Below, piece by piece: positions 10,947-30,181 of a stretch of 42,378 nt of DNA (positions are counted from its first letter, which is position 1; each line of letters starts with the position of its first letter). The translations under genes and the position numbers were made by a program. Origin of the DNA: a virus; the IMG/VR virus record IMGVR_UViG_3300042319_000516, positions 1-42,378 of that record. One strand, 5' to 3'. A model generated the notes under the pieces. The model was not told the origin of the DNA, made no database searches, and worked only from the letters and a program-made list of their open reading frames with translations.

Positions 10947-10973
10947 AATTCGATTAATTAACAATGAGTCCCT

Positions 10974-11292
10974 AATGTTATGATGCCGCTGCTAACCACA
11001 GCGTTGGTAACATTGGCGTAGTATCCGAGTAGAGCAACTTTCGACGGATATTGCGTTAGCTGAGAAGCACTAAAGGAGTTGCCGGAGTCACAACCGTAAG
11101 TAAGTGGTTCTTACTGTGAGTTTATTCGCATATAGACTTGCTCAACAGATCAACACAGTTTGCTGCTGTGGAACGCCAGAGTGAGAGGTAAGCACAAGTC
11201 TATAGTCGAATGAGCTGAATGCGCAAGTAACGTTGCAAAGTAAGCCCGAAGGTTTTCCGGCTTAGCGTAACCGCTGAGGTTGCCAGCTCATT
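10974..11292 (+). ncRNA. Candidate large structured RNA (~320 nt)
   Basis: No gene fits here, but perfect inverted repeats are dense. AATGTTA/TAACATT (10974/11008) encloses CGCTG/CAGCG. TATCCG/CGGATA (11022/11045). TCACA+GTAAG pairs with CTTAC+TGTGA (11088-11119). ATTCG..TATAGACTTG pairs with CAAGTCTATA..CGAAT (11124-11140 with 11195-11211, 15 bp) around CACAG/CTGTG. AATGAGCTG/CAGCTCATT (11209/11284) closes a domain holding GCAA/TTGC, an AAGCC/GGCTT hairpin and AACC/GGTT. It matches none of tmRNA, RNase P RNA or tRNA by eye. Strand is inferred from flanking genes. Confidence 0.65.
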
Positions 11293-12483: not shown

Positions 12484-12930
12484 ATGAAGAATTTAACTTA
12501 TCATGGCGTGAGTAGCTTCTTGCCAGCAATTTATGAAGCAGTGAAGAATGGAACATATGCTGATTTCTGGAAAGAAATTAATGGAAAAATGTTTACCAAT
12601 GTTAGCACCGATTATAGTGTTGGTGGTAATACTATTCGATTTGCTCAGTTACATGAAGTAGTAGATTACGTTGTAGCCAATGCAAAAGATTTGACAGAAG
12701 ATGATATTCGTAGTATTGTTAGCACATTACTTCGTGTAACATTTATCTTCGATAGAAAGTATGTATTTATGATGTCTGTAATCGAAAAAGATTTGACAGA
12801 CGTAGTAGAAGCAGCTACAATTGAAGCAGAACAGGCTACGGAAGTAGTGGTTGACACAACAGTAGAAGCCCCTGTTCAAGAAGCTAAGCCTGTTGTGAAG
12901 AAGGCTGCTGCTAAAGCTAAGAAATCATAA
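12484..12930 (+). CDS. Hypothetical 148-residue protein with Ala/Lys-rich tail
   Basis: ATG 12484 follows CACAGGAAACACA. Residues 1-100 form a mixed domain (YHGVSSFLPAIYEAVKNGTYADFWKEI). From about 105 the protein becomes Glu/Val/Ala-rich and ends VVKKAAAKAKKS, like histone-H1-style basic tails, suggesting nucleic-acid or membrane contacts. No family recognised. A separate transcript start after the terminator would be needed; I see no clear promoter. Confidence 0.7.
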   Translation: MKNLTYHGVSSFLPAIYEAVKNGTYADFWKEINGKMFTNVSTDYSVGGNTIRFAQLHEVVDYVVANAKDLTEDDIRSIVSTLLRVTFIFDRKYVFMMSVIEKDLTDVVEAATIEAEQATEVVVDTTVEAPVQEAKPVVKKAAAKAKKS

Positions 12931-12939
12931 GGAGGAATT

Positions 12940-13056
12940 ATGAAAGAACAAGATTGGGGTTTAGACCTTGACGTTGGTTATGGTGAAGGTATCTCTGATG
13001 AGTGGCCTCCAGTAATTAATGATGGTTGGTTAGATGTGGATATTGTTGGTCCTTAA
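12940..13056 (+). CDS. 38-residue acidic peptide
   Basis: ATG 12940 follows a strong AAGGAGGAATT. The peptide is very acidic and Gly/Trp-rich (GLDLDVGYGEGISDEWPP). It sits 9 bases after the preceding gene and directly before the long structured region. Ribosome site quality is the main support; function unknown. Confidence 0.6.
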   Translation: MKEQDWGLDLDVGYGEGISDEWPPVINDGWLDVDIVGP

Positions 13057-13069
13057 TATTTAAAAGAAT

Positions 13070-13692
13070 TCAGCATCCTCACATGGGATGTGGTTTGCTG
13101 ATAGCCCTCGAATACGTTCCCTAGGGCTTTAAATACAGATGGAATCCGTGCAAGCGCCATAACACATGGACAACTATAAGAGTGAATAATGTGTTGGTCT
13201 GGTAGCGGCAGACTCCCTAATTTAGCATTCTGTAGATTCCACTAGGAATGAATACCGGTGTTAACAAAAAGGCTGACCCAACCCTACACATAGAGCAATT
13301 AGAGCTGGACTGTTTAGGTTGCCTACTTCCCTGTAATAAGGTTTCCCTCGTGGGGAGTAAAAGTTTAATTGTGGGATAGATATAACACGATTGATGCTAT
13401 CGATGGCTACGGTTAACGTGTATAAATAAAGTGAAACAATCGACGGAATGTGTCGTTGGGGCACTTAGAGCAGTCCGTTAATCTGTTATTGCTTAAAAGC
13501 ACTTAAGTTGTTTGGCTCATTGAAGCCTTATAATATGTAACCAACCTCTGCGTAAGTACGTTGGTTATTTCATTTTGTTGTACAGGCTATTGGCGTGGCT
13601 TGGTGCTTCGGCACGAAAAATTGTTCACAGAGATTCTATTAACAAATATTCTCTGTGCTGGGTTTGTGAACAGACCCGCGCCAATGCGCGGG
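13070..13692 (+). ncRNA. Candidate large ornate structured RNA (~620 nt)
   Basis: More than 600 gene-free bases contain many perfect short-range complements: TCAGCA/TGCTGA (13070/13096), AGCCCT/AGGGCT (13103/13123), TGGAATC/GATTCCA (13140/13235) enclosing AACACAT/ATGTGTT and GTCTG/CAGAC, CAACC/GGTTG (13279/13317), ACTTCCC/GGGGAGT (13325/13352), TATAACACG/CGTGTATA (13381/13417) with ATTGAT/ATCGAT inside, GGCT/AGCC, AACCAAC/GTTGGTT (13539/13560), CACAGAGA/TCTCTGTG (13626/13650), ATTGGCG/CGCCAAT (13589/13679), CCCGCGC/GCGCGGG (13675/13686). Size and style recall the ornate phage-borne RNA classes (GOLLD, ROOL), but I cannot assign it to either. No coding frame of note. Confidence 0.7.
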
Positions 13693-13718
13693 GAGTATTT
13701 GATTAATAGGATTTTAAA

Positions 13719-14681
13719 TTGAAAGAGAAGCGGAAAGGTAAATATCGTCGTCTTACACAAGAACAATTTATTGAAAAATGTAAAGAGAACCAGAAAATAG
13801 AGTTAGACTATTCTAACCTTGTTTACCTGACTCAGCACGAGAAGTGCGAAGTGACTTGTATCAAGCACGGCAACACATATTGGCAAGATGCTCAATCAAT
13901 GATGTTAGGTGGGATTGGATGCTGTGACTGCCTAAGAGAATATAAATCTAAAGTGGCTTCAAGTAATCTGCACGAGTTTATTAAAAAGTTGGACGCTAAA
14001 TTCCCTGCACATGGTTTTGATTTTAGTAATGCAAAATACGAGAGAGCTTCTGTACACATAGAGGTGACTTGTAAGGAAGGTCATACTTTCAGAGCAAAGC
14101 CAAATAATTTAATGTCTGGGCATGGTTGTCCAAGTTGCTTCAATATAAGAAAAGGTCATCTTCACAACAAAGGTCGTGAAAGTTATATTCTTAAATTCAA
14201 AGCAGTTCACGGCGATTTATACGACTATTCTACTGTTTCAGAATTCAAGAACTGTAAACAAAAAGTGATTGTCACCTGCCCTACACATGGTGAATTTAGT
14301 ATAACACCAGACAATCATGTTCAAGGTAAAGGTTGTCCTCTATGTGGTGGAAGTGGTTTTCAACCACAGAAATCAGGAACATTCTACATACTTAAAGTAA
14401 CTGACGATGTTATAAAGTTTGGTGTTACAAATAATATGGAAAGGCGTTTGAAGGAAATCAGACGCTACTCTACCTTTGATATAGAGCCTATGTATTTGTT
14501 CAATTTTGCTAGTGGTTATACAGCACTGGACATTGAGAATAAAGTCTACAGAAGTAAAGATATTATAAGAAAGGTAGTTTCGAAAGTAGATATGAAGCAC
14601 GGTTATGTAGAGACAACGTACCTCTCTAATTTATCTAAGATATTATCTATAGTGTATGAATATGAAGACCAGCTTTTATAG
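13719..14681 (+). CDS. GIY-YIG endonuclease with N-terminal zinc-ribbon repeats
   Basis: A 320-residue protein starting with TTG 13719, the only possible start after an in-frame stop at 13707. Three repeats of about 55 residues each end in a cysteine knuckle (CCDC 68-71, CPSC 137-140, CPLC 206-209), with internal CxxHG or CKEGH motifs, giving DNA-binding zinc ribbons. Residues about 221-285 (TFYILKVTDDVIKFGVTNN, ERRLKEI, ENKVYR) form a GIY-YIG nuclease domain. Probably a homing-type endonuclease; the intact neighbour it targets is not obvious. Confidence 0.8.
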   Translation: MKEKRKGKYRRLTQEQFIEKCKENQKIELDYSNLVYLTQHEKCEVTCIKHGNTYWQDAQSMMLGGIGCCDCLREYKSKVASSNLHEFIKKLDAKFPAHGFDFSNAKYERASVHIEVTCKEGHTFRAKPNNLMSGHGCPSCFNIRKGHLHNKGRESYILKFKAVHGDLYDYSTVSEFKNCKQKVIVTCPTHGEFSITPDNHVQGKGCPLCGGSGFQPQKSGTFYILKVTDDVIKFGVTNNMERRLKEIRRYSTFDIEPMYLFNFASGYTALDIENKVYRSKDIIRKVVSKVDMKHGYVETTYLSNLSKILSIVYEYEDQLL

Positions 14682-14695
14682 CTGGCTCTTTTCTA
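14667..14695 (+). terminator. Terminator hairpin after the GIY-YIG gene
   Basis: CCAGC (14669-14673), loop TTTTATA, GCTGG (14681-14685), then CTCTTTTCT. A short stem overlapping the stop codon; moderate strength. Two direct TAGTGCATT copies follow at 14696 and 14709, before the terL ribosome site. Confidence 0.55.
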
Positions 14696-14733
14696 TAGTG
14701 CATTTAATTAGTGCATTATAAAAAAGGAGAAAT

Positions 14734-14874
14734 ATGAGTAACAAAAGACCTAAAGTAACGAACAAGGCTCCTCCAAAAGAGATTGTAGAGATTGGACCTT
14801 GTTCTCCAATGCAAGAACTTGTATTCAAAAGAGCTACCGAAGTAGATTTCATGATCATCGGTGGTTCGCGTGGT
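14734..14874 (+). CDS. terL: Terminase large subunit, exon 1
   Basis: ATG 14734 follows AAAAGGAGAAAT. The 47 codons end in IIGGSRG, the first half of the Walker A loop; without splicing the frame hits TAG two codons later. Joined to exon 2 the loop reads GGSRGGGKSE, the usual form in phage large terminases. Splicing after U (CGTGGT|) is supported by P1 pairing. The spliced protein has 535 residues and is the ATP-driven DNA-packaging motor and nuclease. Confidence 0.88.
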
Positions 14875-15084
14875 AAATAGACCGCTGCCACGTAACCCTG
14901 CTAAGTCGGTGAAACCCTAACGTATAGACGAGGGCAATACCGAGCCGAACGATTAGATTCGTGGGTGTAGAGACTAAAGTAATGTCAAGCGACATGAAAA
15001 CGTAGGGATGCTTTATTGCATAAGATATAGTCCGACAACACCGGAAACGGTGGAAGTGCCTAGCGAACACATAACTGAGACTTG
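14875..15084 (+). other. Group I intron without ORF (terL)
   Basis: 210 nt. The 5' exon end CGTGGT (14869-14874) pairs with the internal guide GCCACG (14887-14892), with the obligatory U.G at the splice site. GACTA (14972-14976) and TAGTC (15028-15032, in AAGATATAGTCC) form P7. The intron ends in G (15084), as group I introns do. It interrupts the Walker A codons. It carries no endonuclease gene. Confidence 0.88.
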
Positions 15085-16551
15085 GGCGGCAAGTCTGAAG
15101 TAATAACTCAGATACCTCTAATGTGGCGAGATGATCCACGATTCAACGGAATGTTTGTCCGTGTTCAGTATGACCAATTGACAGGTGCTGGTGGTTTGTG
15201 GGAGACTGCATACAAATACTACCCTCTCCTTGGTGCAAGACCTATCAAATCTCCACCACCATATTATCAATTTCCTTCTGGTTGTAAGATTCGATACAAA
15301 GCTATTTCAAATCTTTCTGACGCTGAAAAAATGCGCGGCTTGCAACTTAGCTATTTGGGTGTGGATGAAATCACCCAAGTCCCGAAAGAGGCTCTTTTAT
15401 TTTTACTTACAACTTTGCGCTCGGAAGCGAACATGAACTCTGTTTGCATCGGAACGTGTAACCCCCACAGGGAGAACTGGGTATATGACCTAGTTAAGTG
15501 GTATCTCGATGATGAGGGTTTTGTTGATAAGGCTAAGAATGGACAAATTCGTTGGTACGTAGTAAAAGATAATGACTTTATATTTGCCGATAGTGAAGAA
15601 TGGTTTAGTGAAAACATGCCGGAGACGGTGTATATAACCAACCCGTCCACTAATGAGCAAATGTATGTACCACCTAAAAAGTTTTGCTTTGTGCAACTAA
15701 CAATTTTTGATAACCCAATACTCATCCGACTCAACCCGCGCTATCTGTCTGAACTTCAAAATTTACCTGAGCATGAAAGAGCCAGCCAGCTTTTCGGAAA
15801 TTGGCACAGCGAGAGTGACAAGATAAAATTCTTCGACAGAAAATGGCTCAGGGGACAACATGGGGAAAGGGTCAAAAAATCCTTACCGGAAGGTTGTCAA
15901 AGAGTAGTAGCTTGGGATAAAGCTAACACAGAGTATAGTCCTAAGATTAAAAATACAGACGCAGACTTTACCGCTTGTATTCACATGGCTAAAGACAGTA
16001 ATGGATTTTACTACATATATGGTGACTTTGCTAAAACTACTTTCGATGAACACGAACAAGTTTATGGGAAGTTTAGAAAAGCTGCCGGTGAGCGAGACCA
16101 ATTAATGCTACTGCAAGCCAAACATGATGGTAGAGAGACTAAAGTAGTATTAGCTCAGGATGCCGGAGCAGACGGAAAGCAAGTGTTTCAAGAGATTGCC
16201 AAGAAGTTTGTTGCCGAAGGATTTAAAATATACCCTTCTGCCGCATCTGGTACAAGAAGTAAATCTTCTCGCTTTGAACCTTTCTTATCTGCGGCACAAT
16301 CTGGTCTGGTGTTTATAGTAGAAGATAGTTTTCCTGATACTAGGACGCTGAATGCTTTCTACAGAGAGCTTGAACAATTTCAACCAAACGAAGACGGTAA
16401 GTGGCGCAGCAGCAGAAAAATCAAAGATGATTGGGTTGATACAACAGCAGATTGTTTTAATTTCCTGTGCCGTGTCAAAACTTACACAGTCCCAAAACTA
16501 ACCGCTCTCAACGATCCCACAATCAAAGCGCAATATGACCTTAATTCATAA
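15085..16551 (+). CDS. terL: Terminase large subunit, exon 2
   Basis: 488 residues starting GGKSEVITQ. Walker B and catalytic Glu lie in LSYLGVDEIT, the coupling motif is GTCNPH, and the C-terminal RNase H-like nuclease carries acidic residues in VVAWDKAN, DADFTACIHM and IKDDWVDTTAD. The order and spacing fit a complete two-domain large terminase. An isolated TTG start at 15082 could be annotated, but it lies inside the intron and would produce a protein lacking a working P-loop. Confidence 0.92.
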   Translation, partial: GGKSEVITQIPLMWRDDPRFNGMFVRVQYDQLTGAGGLWETAYKYYPLLGARPIKSPPPYYQFPSGCKIRYKAISNLSDAEKMRGLQLSYLGVDEITQVPKEALLFLLTTLRSEANMNSVCIGTCNPHRENWVYDLVKWYLDDEGFVDKAKNGQIRWYVVKDNDFIFADSEEWFSENMPETVYITNPSTNEQMYVPPKKFCFVQLTIFDNPILIRLNPRYLSELQNLPEHERASQLFGNWHSESDKIKFFDRKWLRGQHGERVKKSLPEGCQRVVAWDKANTEYSPKIKNTDADFTACIHMAKDSNGFYYIYGDFAKTTFDEHEQVYGKFRKAAGERDQLMLLQAKHDGRETKVVLAQDAGADGKQVFQEIAKKFVAEGFKIYPSAASGTRSKSSRFEPFLSAAQSGLVFIVEDSFPDTRTLNAFYRELEQFQPNEDGKWRSSRKIKDDWVDTTADCFNFLCRVKTYTVPKLTALNDPTIKAQYDLNS

Positions 16552-16563
16552 TCTGAGGGGATA

Positions 16564-17328
16564 ATGTCAGAAACAATTCAAATTGAGAAAGCTGAATCTA
16601 ATCCCTCTAGCTCAGACAGTCGTCTTCGCTTAGGGGAGATCGGCAATCCATATCTAAAAGCCATCGGGGGCTACATTGAAGAATCTGCTAAGAAAGAATT
16701 GCAGTTTCCTCATAGCCTCACCACATACGATAAGATGGCTTCTACCTCTGCTGTTAGCCAAGGCTTAACCGCTGGTGAAGTATTCCTTACGAAGTCCCTA
16801 CTTGCTACAAAGTTTATCGCAGGTGTATCAGGAAGTCAAGAGTCAAAAGATTTTGCTGCCTTCCTCAACTGGAACATCAAGAACTTCGTCGGTAACAGTT
16901 GGTACGATGCCATCACAAATATTATCACATTCCGTAAATATGGATTCGCTTGGCTTGAGAAAGTCTTTGCAAAGAATGATAGTATTAAGTGGTCTGGTAA
17001 ATATAAATACAAATACGCAAAGCTTGCTCCTCGCGCTCAAAAGAGTGTTCGTGAGTGGGTGTTTGATGATGCTGTATTGAAGCGAGACTTAGTTGGTTTA
17101 CATCAATGGATGCCAGCTACAGTTATTGGACAAAGTAATATCAACCCTTTCACTGTACAAAACTTAACAGATAAATTTGTTCGTAGAGAAAAGTTTATGT
17201 TGTTTAGTTGGAACAGTACAGGTAACAACCCTCAAGGTAAATCAGATCTATACGACTGCTTTAAATCTTGGAAAGAGCTTGAAATGATTACAAGCTATGA
17301 GGTTGTTGGGGTGAGCAAGGACTTGGGT
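16564..17328 (+). CDS. Portal protein, exon 1
   Basis: 255 codons from ATG 16564 (ribosome site GAGGGGATA) to GGT at 17328, ending EVVGVSKDLG. Unspliced translation would run 11 codons into the intron and stop at 17361. Segments such as AVSQGLTAGEVFLTKSLL, NSWYDAITNIITFRKYGFAWLEKVF and SGKYKYKYAKLAPRA fit phage portals of the Mu gp29-like (DUF935-related) group. The portal is the dodecameric ring for DNA entry at one capsid vertex. Spliced length is 505 residues. Confidence 0.85.
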
Positions 17329-17584
17329 AGAACTGCCCCCTTGTGTAGTAATGCACATTGAATAACTTTTCTAATTCGGTGAAACTCTTACCAAGTAATG
17401 TTGGAGACAATACCGAGCGAAGCTCAGTAATGAGAACGTGTAACGACTAGGCGTAAGCCGTAGGGCTAAGTAGCTCGAAATGGGAAGCATCCTTATAGGA
17501 TGAAGATATAGTCTGAACTTTATGGAAACATAGAGAAGCGAATAATGTCGCTGGAGTGAATTAACGACTCACTTTGAACAAATG
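17329..17584 (+). other. Group I intron without ORF (portal)
   Basis: 256 nt. Exon end GGGT (17325-17328) pairs with GCCC (17335-17338), with U.G at the junction. The helix can extend as CAAGG (17316-17320) with CCTTG (17339-17343) if four exon bases bulge. P7: GACTA (17445-17449) with TAGTC (17509-17513, in AAGATATAGTC). It ends in G (17584). Splicing restores GVSKDLG-GVLVLRV. Confidence 0.87.
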
Positions 17585-28097: not shown

Positions 28098-28160
28098 TAA
28101 AATTAGGTTCGCTGCATAGAAATGTGCAGAAAAATATATTCCTTTAATTGCGGGGAAATC

Positions 28161-28188
28161 TTGACAGGTGTTGACTACCGTGTATAAT
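28161..28188 (+). promoter_or_regulatory. Consensus sigma70 promoter inside the intron
   Basis: TTGACA (28161-28166), 16-base spacer, TATAAT (28183-28188). Both hexamers are perfect. It lies 100 bases before the endonuclease ATG and inside the intron, so it would express the endonuclease independently of late tail transcription. Confidence 0.8.
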
Positions 28189-28289
28189 ATACAAAGCAAA
28201 CAGTAATGTGTTTGTGATGGTAAAAACGTCAACAATAGAGACAATCCGCAGCGAAGCAGAAAATTCTCTGAAAATCAGTAGGAGCAGAA

Positions 28290-28994
28290 ATGTTTGTAAA
28301 TAAGATAAAAGTTATAGTATTGAAAGATTACCCAAATTATGCAGTAAGTGCTTGTGGTAAAGTTTTTAATATAAAAAGAAACAAAGAGATCGCACAATCA
28401 ATTAAGGTGATAAATAATTATCCTAGTTGTTATGTGAGATTGTCCGTAGAAGGTGTCGTGTACAATAGAAAAGTACACAGATTAGTTCTTGAAGCATGGC
28501 AAGGTTGTCCAGACAAAAAGCTGCAAGTCAACCACAAAGACGGTAACTCTTTAAACAATAACGTTGAAAACCTTGAGTGGGTAACAGCCAGTCAAAATCA
28601 ACGACACGCAGTTTCTACAGGACTTAAAGGTAAAGGCTCAGACTTATACAATGCGAGTCTAACTGAAGACGCTGTACATAAAGTTTGTCAAATGCTTGTC
28701 AACGGACACAGAATCTGTGATATAGCTAAGGAAGTTAACACATCCAAAGGTGTTATAAGATTGATACGTGCCGGCGACTGTTACTTCCACATAAGGCAGC
28801 TTTACAAAATAGAACATAACTATCCCAATGACTTCTCTGTGAATACTGTCAAGTGGGTTTGTTATAGAATTTTAGACGGATTGGGTGATAAAGAAATTGC
28901 GAAACTCAGTAGCAATGACAAGCTCAGTACGATAGAGATAAAACGAATTAGATATAAGATTCGTTATAAAAACATTTCTGATGAATTTTTCTGA
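28290..28994 (+). CDS. Intron-encoded HNH homing endonuclease
   Basis: A 234-residue protein with ribosome site AGTAGGAGCAG before ATG 28290. The N-terminus DYPNYAVSACGKVFNIKRNKE is a NUMOD4-like motif. VHRLVLEAW...LQVNHKDGNSLNNNVENLEWVT is a full HNH core (His, Asn-His, Asn and Asn in LNNNVENLEW). Residues about 125-160 (AVHKVCQMLVNGHRICDIAKEVNTSKGVIRLI) are an HTH-like DNA-binding repeat. It would cut intron-less tape-measure alleles to spread the intron. Confidence 0.9.
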   Translation: MFVNKIKVIVLKDYPNYAVSACGKVFNIKRNKEIAQSIKVINNYPSCYVRLSVEGVVYNRKVHRLVLEAWQGCPDKKLQVNHKDGNSLNNNVENLEWVTASQNQRHAVSTGLKGKGSDLYNASLTEDAVHKVCQMLVNGHRICDIAKEVNTSKGVIRLIRAGDCYFHIRQLYKIEHNYPNDFSVNTVKWVCYRILDGLGDKEIAKLSSNDKLSTIEIKRIRYKIRYKNISDEFF

Positions 28995-29151
28995 ACGTTC
29001 AACGGCCAGTCGAAAGACGTAGACTCAAGTGAGTCGAAATGGGGAACCCTTAACATTAAGTTGAAGGTGAAGATATGGTCTGATCTTACAGGAGACTGTA
29101 AGCAGCTTGAATAAAGCGGGGAAGGGTTAACGACCCTTCCTGAACATAATG

Positions 29152-30181
29152 TAAAGAACAGCTAGGCGACAGATTACCAATAGCAATGAGAGCCTTAGAA
29201 AAATCCACAGGTAAAACAGCTAAAGAGTTGTTTAAAATGATGGAGCAAGGACAACTTGGTGCCGAATATATTCTTCCGTTCGTATTACAAATGGAGAAGT
29301 TGGTAAACGTCAATGACGCTTATACTAAATCTCTTGATAAGCTTGGTATTGTAGAGAACAGAATGAAAGCAGCTTTCTCTGTAACTGCTGCTGAGAACTT
29401 AGATAAAGGTGGTTTTACTGAAGGTCTGAAAAACTTCTTCAAAACAATAACTGATCTGGTTAACAATAATGAAGATACACTACAGCGTCTTGGCAGAATA
29501 TACAAGAAAGTGTTTGATGTACTGTCAGTTGTAGTGAGAGGTGCTACACAATGGTTTGCTTCTTTCTTACGTTCTGTAGAAACGGTAGGTCAGGCAATAG
29601 GATGGTTTGTTGATAACCCTCTGGCGGCTTTAATAGTGGCTATGCCTATTCTGATTACTAATATGAAGAATTTAGGTTTAGTGATGGCTGCTGCTTTCAA
29701 AACACCTCTCGTTATTCTGACTACAATCGTAGGTGTACTTGATGAAATCAGAGCATACTTTGATGATGATGTAGTTGGTTTGTTTGATGATAAGGGTTGG
29801 TCTGAAGAAAAGAGTAAGAAAGTACACGCCCAACGACGAATGATGATGGGTATGGGTAGTGCTGAAGACGCTAAACTTGTTGGCGGTGATTTCACAGTAG
29901 GGCCATTAGCTCAATTTGGGCAAGACATCGCTAAGAATATGCCCGTTGCTTCTCAGACAGAACACGGTTCAGTAATACTTTCGGCACTGGAAGGTTTTGC
30001 TAAAACATCCTTCGATTATACTATGGCTGGATTGAAAGACTTTACATCTTGGTATTCACAAAATACTGTTGGTGGTAATATCAGTATCACAATCAATTCA
30101 CCTGACCCAGAAAAAGCTGGTGAAAGTGTGAAGAAGGAATTAGAGCGTATGACTGGCATGCAATCTGTTGGAGTAAGGTAA
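29152..30181 (+). CDS. Tape measure protein, exon 2
   Basis: The first base completes a Leu codon; then KEQLGDRLPIAMRALEKSTGKTAKELFKMMEQGQL follows, a conserved tape-measure segment. A hydrophobic stretch (GWFVDNPLAALIVAMPILITNM, about 110 residues in) fits the membrane-active part of tape measures. The end GNISITINSPDPEKAGESVKKELERM is a common C-terminal motif. An ATG at 29186 is in frame but starts too late to include the motif. Stop coupled to next ATG (TAATG). Confidence 0.87.

Follow-up and report, generated by a model that had tools for sequence, protein, structure and literature searches.

The window, that is, the whole stretch of DNA that was analysed, is a viral record of 42,378 bases. 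A stretch at 13063-13718 is preceded on its 5′ side by a 148-aa gene (12484-12930) and then one very small gene, and it runs up to the start of an endonuclease gene at 13719. The earlier note, which had placed this feature at 13070-13692, called it gene-free, and no plus-strand open reading frame of at least 60 aa is present in 13063-13718; one minus-strand frame of 67 aa (13261-13464) lies inside it. The edges shift slightly, to a conserved 5′ edge at 13063 and a 3′ edge at the endonuclease start itself. The protein encoded at 13719-14681 matched PF14311 and PF05265 above the cut-off, PF13455 (MUG113) weakly and below the cut-off, and the endonuclease family phrog_681 at 9.5e-64; its GIY-YIG-like C-terminus is read from an alignment and from the weak MUG113 match. 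By these family profiles the gene is a homing endonuclease of GIY-YIG/DUF723 type. Downstream of it lies the large terminase gene, whose P-loop region is split by an intron (by eye). The group I intron model RF00028 matched 14834-15054 and not the stretch, with 47.7 bits (E 1.8e-10), just under its gathering score of 50. The features discussed below are the following.

13063-13101, plus strand: 5′ edge hairpin P1, stem 13070-13075 with 13096-13101.
13102-13263, plus strand: module X1, found in the window and L013 only, fold excess absent.
13264-13382, plus strand: module X2, with an AGGC-bulge-AACC/GGTT-GCCT stem (by eye).
13487-13573, plus strand: module X4, hairpin 13537-13568 with a GNRA-type loop.
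13583-13602, plus strand: core hairpin H1, 8 bp, loop UGGC.
13589-13597, plus strand: 5′ strand of helix A, ATTGGCGTG, partner 13677-13685; excludes H1 and H4.
13603-13614, plus strand: variable hairpin H2, with a UUCG loop in the window.
13623-13671, plus strand: hairpins B (13623-13629 with 13665-13671) and C (13626-13633 with 13650-13657), an alternative to helix D.
13634-13657, plus strand: D5′, the 5′ arm of sequestering helix D, a 29-bp helix with D3′ (single-base bulges allowed).
13675-13692, plus strand: hairpin H4, CCCGCGC-CAAT-GCGCGGG, an alternative to helix A that overlaps D3′.
13687-13711, plus strand: D3′, the 3′ arm of helix D, terminating in a Shine-Dalgarno-like AGGA.
13719-14681, plus strand: free-standing endonuclease gene with a TTG start, treble-clef/DUF723 repeats and a GIY-YIG-like C-terminus.
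14834-15054, plus strand: small group I intron without its own endonuclease, in the terminase P-loop region (position by eye; RF00028).

Other places in the window also look structured. A terminator-like hairpin lies over the endonuclease stop codon (14669-14685), where relatives have hairpins of different sequence (by eye). Besides the intron in the terminase gene, a second small group I intron without an endonuclease lies in the portal gene (17315-17535), and 28120-29185, around an open reading frame at 28290-28994, resembles a group I intron by eye, where no model reached its gathering score. The gene-free region 10947-11290 (∼340 nt) appears structured, and an Rfam search of it gave no match above threshold. 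Between the same flanks L008 has 7 nt and L010 ∼580 nt, within which lies a tRNA-Arg (tct) gene; near its end the region shares GAGCTGAATGCGCAAGT...GCCAGCTCATT with L010.

Relatives with a leader at the terminase site are L008, L009, L010, L012 and L013. The core of L018 is the same as that of L010, the leader of L013 is interrupted by a contig end, and two contigs in IMG/VR match the window without a difference across the region. The five complete leaders have AAAGAATTCAGCA at the 5′ end and the endonuclease start at the 3′ end, and measure 278 (L012), 306 (L008), 375 (L010), 656 (window) and 738 nt (L009). Internal modules between P1 and the 3′ core are present or absent depending on the relative, and the core, 13583-13718, is kept. 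P1 is identical to that of the window in L013 (39/39), L008 (39/39), L010 (38/38) and L012 (43/43, with flank), and 90% identical over 41 nt in L009. For X1, 167/168 aligned bases (13102-13269) are identical between the window and L013. X2 is 73% identical to L009:2543-2663 with its stem conserved; comparison of this stem between the window and relatives revealed no covariation, and BLAST of L008, L010 and L012 gave no match to the module. X4 is 94% identical to its counterpart in L009 and partly retained in L012, and its loop reads GUAA in the window, GAAA in L009 and GCAA in L012. Further modules are common to L009 and L010 or to L008 and L010.

The terminase gene behind these leaders has been exchanged among close relatives (13100-16475), within flanks of roughly 84-98% DNA identity. 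The gene upstream of the stretch is 84-98% identical by halves in relatives (84-92% for its 3′ half), and DNA identity is back at 94-98% from 16475 onward. The terminase of the window has 35-42% protein identity to those of L012, L010 and L008 and is no closer to them than to that of Pseudoalteromonas phage H101. Since the divergent terminase lies between flanks that are similar in DNA, these phages have exchanged the block that begins at P1 and ends with the terminase. A search with the upstream gene recovered the same phage group and gave no match among public phages. Judged from these comparisons, the ∼500 nt at 13063-13582 appear to be modular sequence exchanged together with the endonuclease and the terminase. 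They may be nothing else than recombination debris of repeated homing, without RNA function. We give this debris reading a little less than an even chance, and it would be compatible with the explanation that we prefer for the core. The modules come and go among relatives and show no fold excess, as debris would, but the identity of P1 in L008, L010, L012 and L013 and its 90% conservation in L009 argue against it, as does the X4 hairpin, which retains a GNRA-type loop despite changed letters.

The 3′ core holds several helices that compete for strands. On hand-picked strands, H1 has 8/8 pairs in five cores and 7/8 in L009b, a copy at a second site in L009. Helix A (ATTGGCG/CGCCAAT) has 7-8 of 8 pairs in six cores, its strands in L009b being TGTGGTGT/ACACCACA; the 3′ strand, between B and D3′, can pair with the H1 region or form its own hairpin H4, and A excludes both H1 and H4. 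The H2 position holds a hairpin of different sequence in four other cores and none in L009b; in the window it is GTGC-TTCG-GCAC at 13603-13614, the UUCG hairpin that had been reported earlier from the sequence. B has 7/7 pairs in five cores and 5/7 in L009b, and C is complete in six. The D5′ arm consists of the loop and 3′ side of hairpin C. Because this strand is shared, D and C are mutually exclusive; for D and B to be present together, a pseudoknot would be needed. Mutually exclusive arms, likewise claimed from the sequence of this record, exist and recur in relatives, and by eye the window and L009b have the same overlap of B with C.

Helix D covers the Shine-Dalgarno region with 24-29 bp in the six cores (single-base bulges merged), and D3′ ends on a Shine-Dalgarno-like sequence in all of them: AAGG, AGGA or, in L009b, GAGAG. 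We measured 83 endonuclease starts alike, taking the first start codon in frame, which may be wrong in some cases. The six cores had the longest helices, followed by L053 (21 bp) and by T4 segB and L037 (18 bp each); among the 77 other starts, L053 alone reached at least 20 bp. The comparison set comprised 69/79 loci, ten apparent duplicates by their match lines having been left out. In 1,800 shuffles of the six leaders, a helix of at least 20 bp arose once. Predicted pairing of the Shine-Dalgarno sequence in the six cores was 0.84-1.00 with D5′ and 0.09-0.60 without it; the upper value comes from L009b, whose weaker GAGAG is predicted to be 60% paired even without D5′. For the last 6 nt of D3′ in the window, the mean predicted pairing was 1.00 with D5′ and 0.18 without. 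Predicted folds of the full-length RNA contained D in 6/6 cores, with a minimum free energy 10-16 kcal/mol under that of the best fold in which D3′ was held open. Support for D as the sequestering helix is good; for the second state it is weaker.

In the more distant phage L053, the endonuclease Shine-Dalgarno sequence and TTG start lie inside the 21-bp helix (2396-2501), and the leader has a fold z of −4.1. We rejected this ribosome-site hairpin as an example of the same device since the C/D overlap is absent by eye.

Pair conservation was counted in six distinct cores from one phage group, L008, L009 and L010 being near-identical within the core. MAFFT failed on the divergent cores; the alignment was instead fitted by R1, a covariance model from four cores, and is fitted to the D structure, with the L009b row out of register in H1. 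In this model-fitted alignment of six cores, 18/32 counted pairs show two-sided changes, 14/24 of them within D. Paired cells make up 99.5% of that same model-fitted alignment, compared with 39-48% in slid registers, and 0/500 shuffles were as good. Within cores, pairing was 121/121 for D, 46/46 for C, 40/42 for B, 47/48 for H1 and 45/48 for A, figures that are no test because the strands were chosen for pairing; only the cross-core figures carry weight. When a strand was set against the partner strand of another core, 65% of positions paired for D, 41% for C, 53% for B, 59% for H1 and 85% for A. Covariation in helix A appears weak. The claim of a structured RNA is very probably right, and homologues show compensatory changes, the check that the earlier note had itself named.

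We ran R1 on 52 sources. Beyond its four training sequences and L018, it matched the core of the window (36.6 bits, E 9e-4), L009:397-552 (L009b; 38.7 bits, E 4e-4) and, weakly, the opposite strand of known cores. L009b, which model R2 matched with 47 bits (E 1.5e-7), keeps the anatomy with largely different letters, D being a 22-bp helix. It lies immediately 5′ of a protein with an HNH_3 match (AP2 below the cut-off), ahead of the gene whose start in the window is 11925, and the site is without an insert in four genomes (window, L008, L010 and L013). The P1 and X modules are absent from L009b, and the core therefore appears to be the autonomous part.

A scan by structure alone, for hairpins in which the loop together with the 3′ side has a downstream partner, covered 133 sequences (1.05 Mb, both strands) and returned 26 matches. 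Twelve were 24-25 nt long and all lay in five of the six cores or their copies; the other 14 were of 15-18 nt, a length also found in the shuffled sets (14 of 21, among the matches listed). The scan misses the core of the window because its D has a bulge. No further member came from R1 on 72 other endonuclease loci, from R2 on 48 further viral records and two public phages, or from R2 on nine public phage records, an empty result that shows little. R2 gave no match on Vibrio phage ICP1 at E up to 5, with a record of known copies run as a control. These R2 negatives are not strong because R2 misses the window's own core. DNA similarity searches of 50,697 phage records with the stretch, the leaders of L009, L010 and L012 and the L009b core gave none or short weak matches (E at least 0.2), and R1 matched 0 of 31 loci from a pattern scan of bacterial genomes. 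In IMG/VR, pattern searches built on the 5′ hairpin, on X2 and X4 and on the core returned the same phage group only. Two sets of candidates were rejected: an intergenic region of Pseudoalteromonas phage H101, judged non-homologous on reading, and the longer leaders of L042, L043, L080 and L088, by eye.

We consider it fairly probable that 13583-13718 is a portable, cis-acting mRNA leader that controls access of ribosomes to a homing endonuclease gene, possibly in two states. The helices, the covariation of D, the mutual exclusion, the position of D over the Shine-Dalgarno region and the second site come from computation; that the leader is transcribed, in which order it folds and how this affects translation are inferred, as in the scheme below. 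While the final ∼25 nt (D3′) are still to be transcribed, C would form together with A and B, leaving the Shine-Dalgarno sequence open. Once made, D3′ would pair into the loop of C and shut the ribosome site, so that in the full-length RNA helix D of 24-29 bp would bury the Shine-Dalgarno sequence and keep the endonuclease off. The leader would thus pass from an open early state to a closed final state, or be opened on transcripts that start inside it. In this reading it is portable: next to the terminase it goes with three divergent endonucleases, and at the second site with an HNH endonuclease. Predicted folds of transcripts stopping before D3′ contained C in 6/6 cores and A in 5/6; in the predicted early fold of L009b the H1 strand pairs with L009:500-506 and not with the named A partner. 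The A, B and C strands can be named in six cores, with an occurrence less uniform than that of D. On these predictions the core could be a switch with two states. A literature search, to which subscription papers were mostly closed, showed no two-state homing-endonuclease leader among the papers listed.

The same core could also act as a static hairpin of the T4 kind, in which D alone matters and closes the ribosome site of read-through RNAs. Translation would then come from transcripts that begin at a promoter within the leader and do not contain D5′, and A, B and C would be by-products. This mechanism is a known one, D is the strongest helix and T4 segB has an 18-bp helix by the same measure. 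The letters of C are nearly identical in five cores and A varies little, and a weak sigma-70-like site lies at 13624-13652. However, the letters of B change between cores with full pairing kept in five of six, the B/C overlap recurs as noted above, and promoter-like sites are at chance level (6 versus 6.6 expected). The word TATAAATA, which we take to be the T4 late-promoter word, was not found within the D5′ arm; four copies occur in the window, one at 13421, in inconsistent position. We regard the static hairpin as possible, though rather unlikely.

The portable leader could be extended to a new mobile RNA class. A two-state 'timer' would have moved between phage sites and between unrelated endonuclease families (GIY-YIG and HNH), with the ribosome site open only briefly after transcription, and the copy at the terminase site would have acquired an exchangeable 5′ domain with some tuning or sensing role. 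This extended proposal is speculative and, taken as a whole, unlikely.

We also considered an element acting as DNA, either inverted repeats that serve as operator or target of the endonuclease or a packaging or recombination site beside the terminase. The stretch is indeed the 5′ edge of the exchanged block, and I-TevI binds an operator that adjoins its own gene, according to the accessible part of its description (PMC2988022). Against this, three pairs of D are G-U in 6/6 rows, a pairing that DNA does not form and that therefore fits plus-strand RNA rather than DNA; D3′ ends on the Shine-Dalgarno-like sequence throughout, and the letters of D differ between core types with pairing kept. A DNA-level element is thus quite improbable.

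The earlier note had described an exceptional structure over ∼620 nt, in the size and style of the giant RNAs GOLLD and ROOL and possibly a new class. The 661-nt stretch folds better than 20/20 dinucleotide shuffles (z −4.32), and its minus strand gives the same z, −4.32. A local scan (422 windows of 200 nt) found fold excess at 13401-13600 (z −3.57), 13501-13700 (−3.85) and 13601-13800 (−5.38), whereas three windows within 13001-13400 gave −0.80, −0.05 and −0.51 and 13301-13500 gave −1.78. The exceptional structure thus holds for the 3′ part and not for the whole length, 13001-13400 being like shuffled DNA. Fold energy alone proves little because 200-nt windows elsewhere in the window, coding DNA included, attain z of −4 to −5.5. 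Thermodynamics backs only part of the observation, and the comparison among relatives carries the argument.

Covariance models of GOLLD, ROOL and OLE, run on the region as the note had proposed, gave no match at the gathering cut-off and none at E up to 5. An Rfam search of the stretch returned no family at the gathering score, only sub-threshold matches, with group II intron and HEARO among the families covered; L009 and L010 likewise had only sub-threshold matches, GOLLD, ROOL and OLE being absent. Since the stretch ends at the endonuclease start codon, it reads as a leader and not as a free-standing giant RNA. That all 620 nt are one ornate functional molecule is highly improbable: the long gene-free stretch, the UUCG and GNRA-type loops and a superficial fit to the GOLLD layout of a conserved 3′ and a less conserved 5′ region (in the portion of PMC12286853 available) speak for it, but the length varies from 278 to 738 nt among close relatives, the 5′ half has no fold excess, the second-site copy is a core without P1 and X modules, and a tRNA gene search of the window found none. 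A new class seems warranted only as the ∼140-nt leader core that accompanies homing endonucleases, not as a giant RNA.

Homing endonucleases are common selfish genes of phages, and how they avoid harm to the host phage is understood only in part. If the RNA described here moves with endonucleases of different families, the control device would itself be mobile and reusable, and with a leader that has two competing folds, timed translation during phage infection could be tested directly. Like GOLLD, ROOL and OLE, it is a long structured RNA of phages or bacteria. It differs from them in matching none of their models, adjoining a start codon, varying in length and having a conserved core of only ∼140 nt. 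Homo-oligomeric RNA assembly is a trait of GOLLD, ROOL and OLE. GOLLD and ROOL often lie near tRNA islands, as far as the available part of PMC12286853 describes; among L008, L009, L010 and L013, only L010 has a tRNA near its leader, a tRNA-Arg ∼2.1 kb upstream.

In Vibrio phage ICP1 a T5orf172 endonuclease lies just upstream of an intron-split terminase, the same arrangement as in the window, and this pairing is discussed as collaborative homing in the portion of PMC10448857 that we could consult. The ICP1 leader is, by contrast, 118 nt long and has as its predicted fold a different, A+U-rich hairpin at the start. Closer parallels are the leaders of T4 I-TevI, I-TevII, I-TevIII and segB and of Aeh1 mobE, which likewise have a long helix over the endonuclease Shine-Dalgarno sequence; segB and mobE are free-standing genes like the endonuclease at 13719. 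Such sequestering helices are described for I-TevI and mobE and implicated for segB in the accessible parts of PMC2988022 and PMC3014915, and by analogy with these accounts the closed state proposed here would correspond to the published I-TevI/mobE control. By the same measure the helix is longer here (24-29 bp) than in segB (18 bp). No late promoter was identified in the present leaders and, unlike in the T4 and Aeh1 leaders, competing helices recur. The present leader also occurs with two endonuclease families and at two sites.
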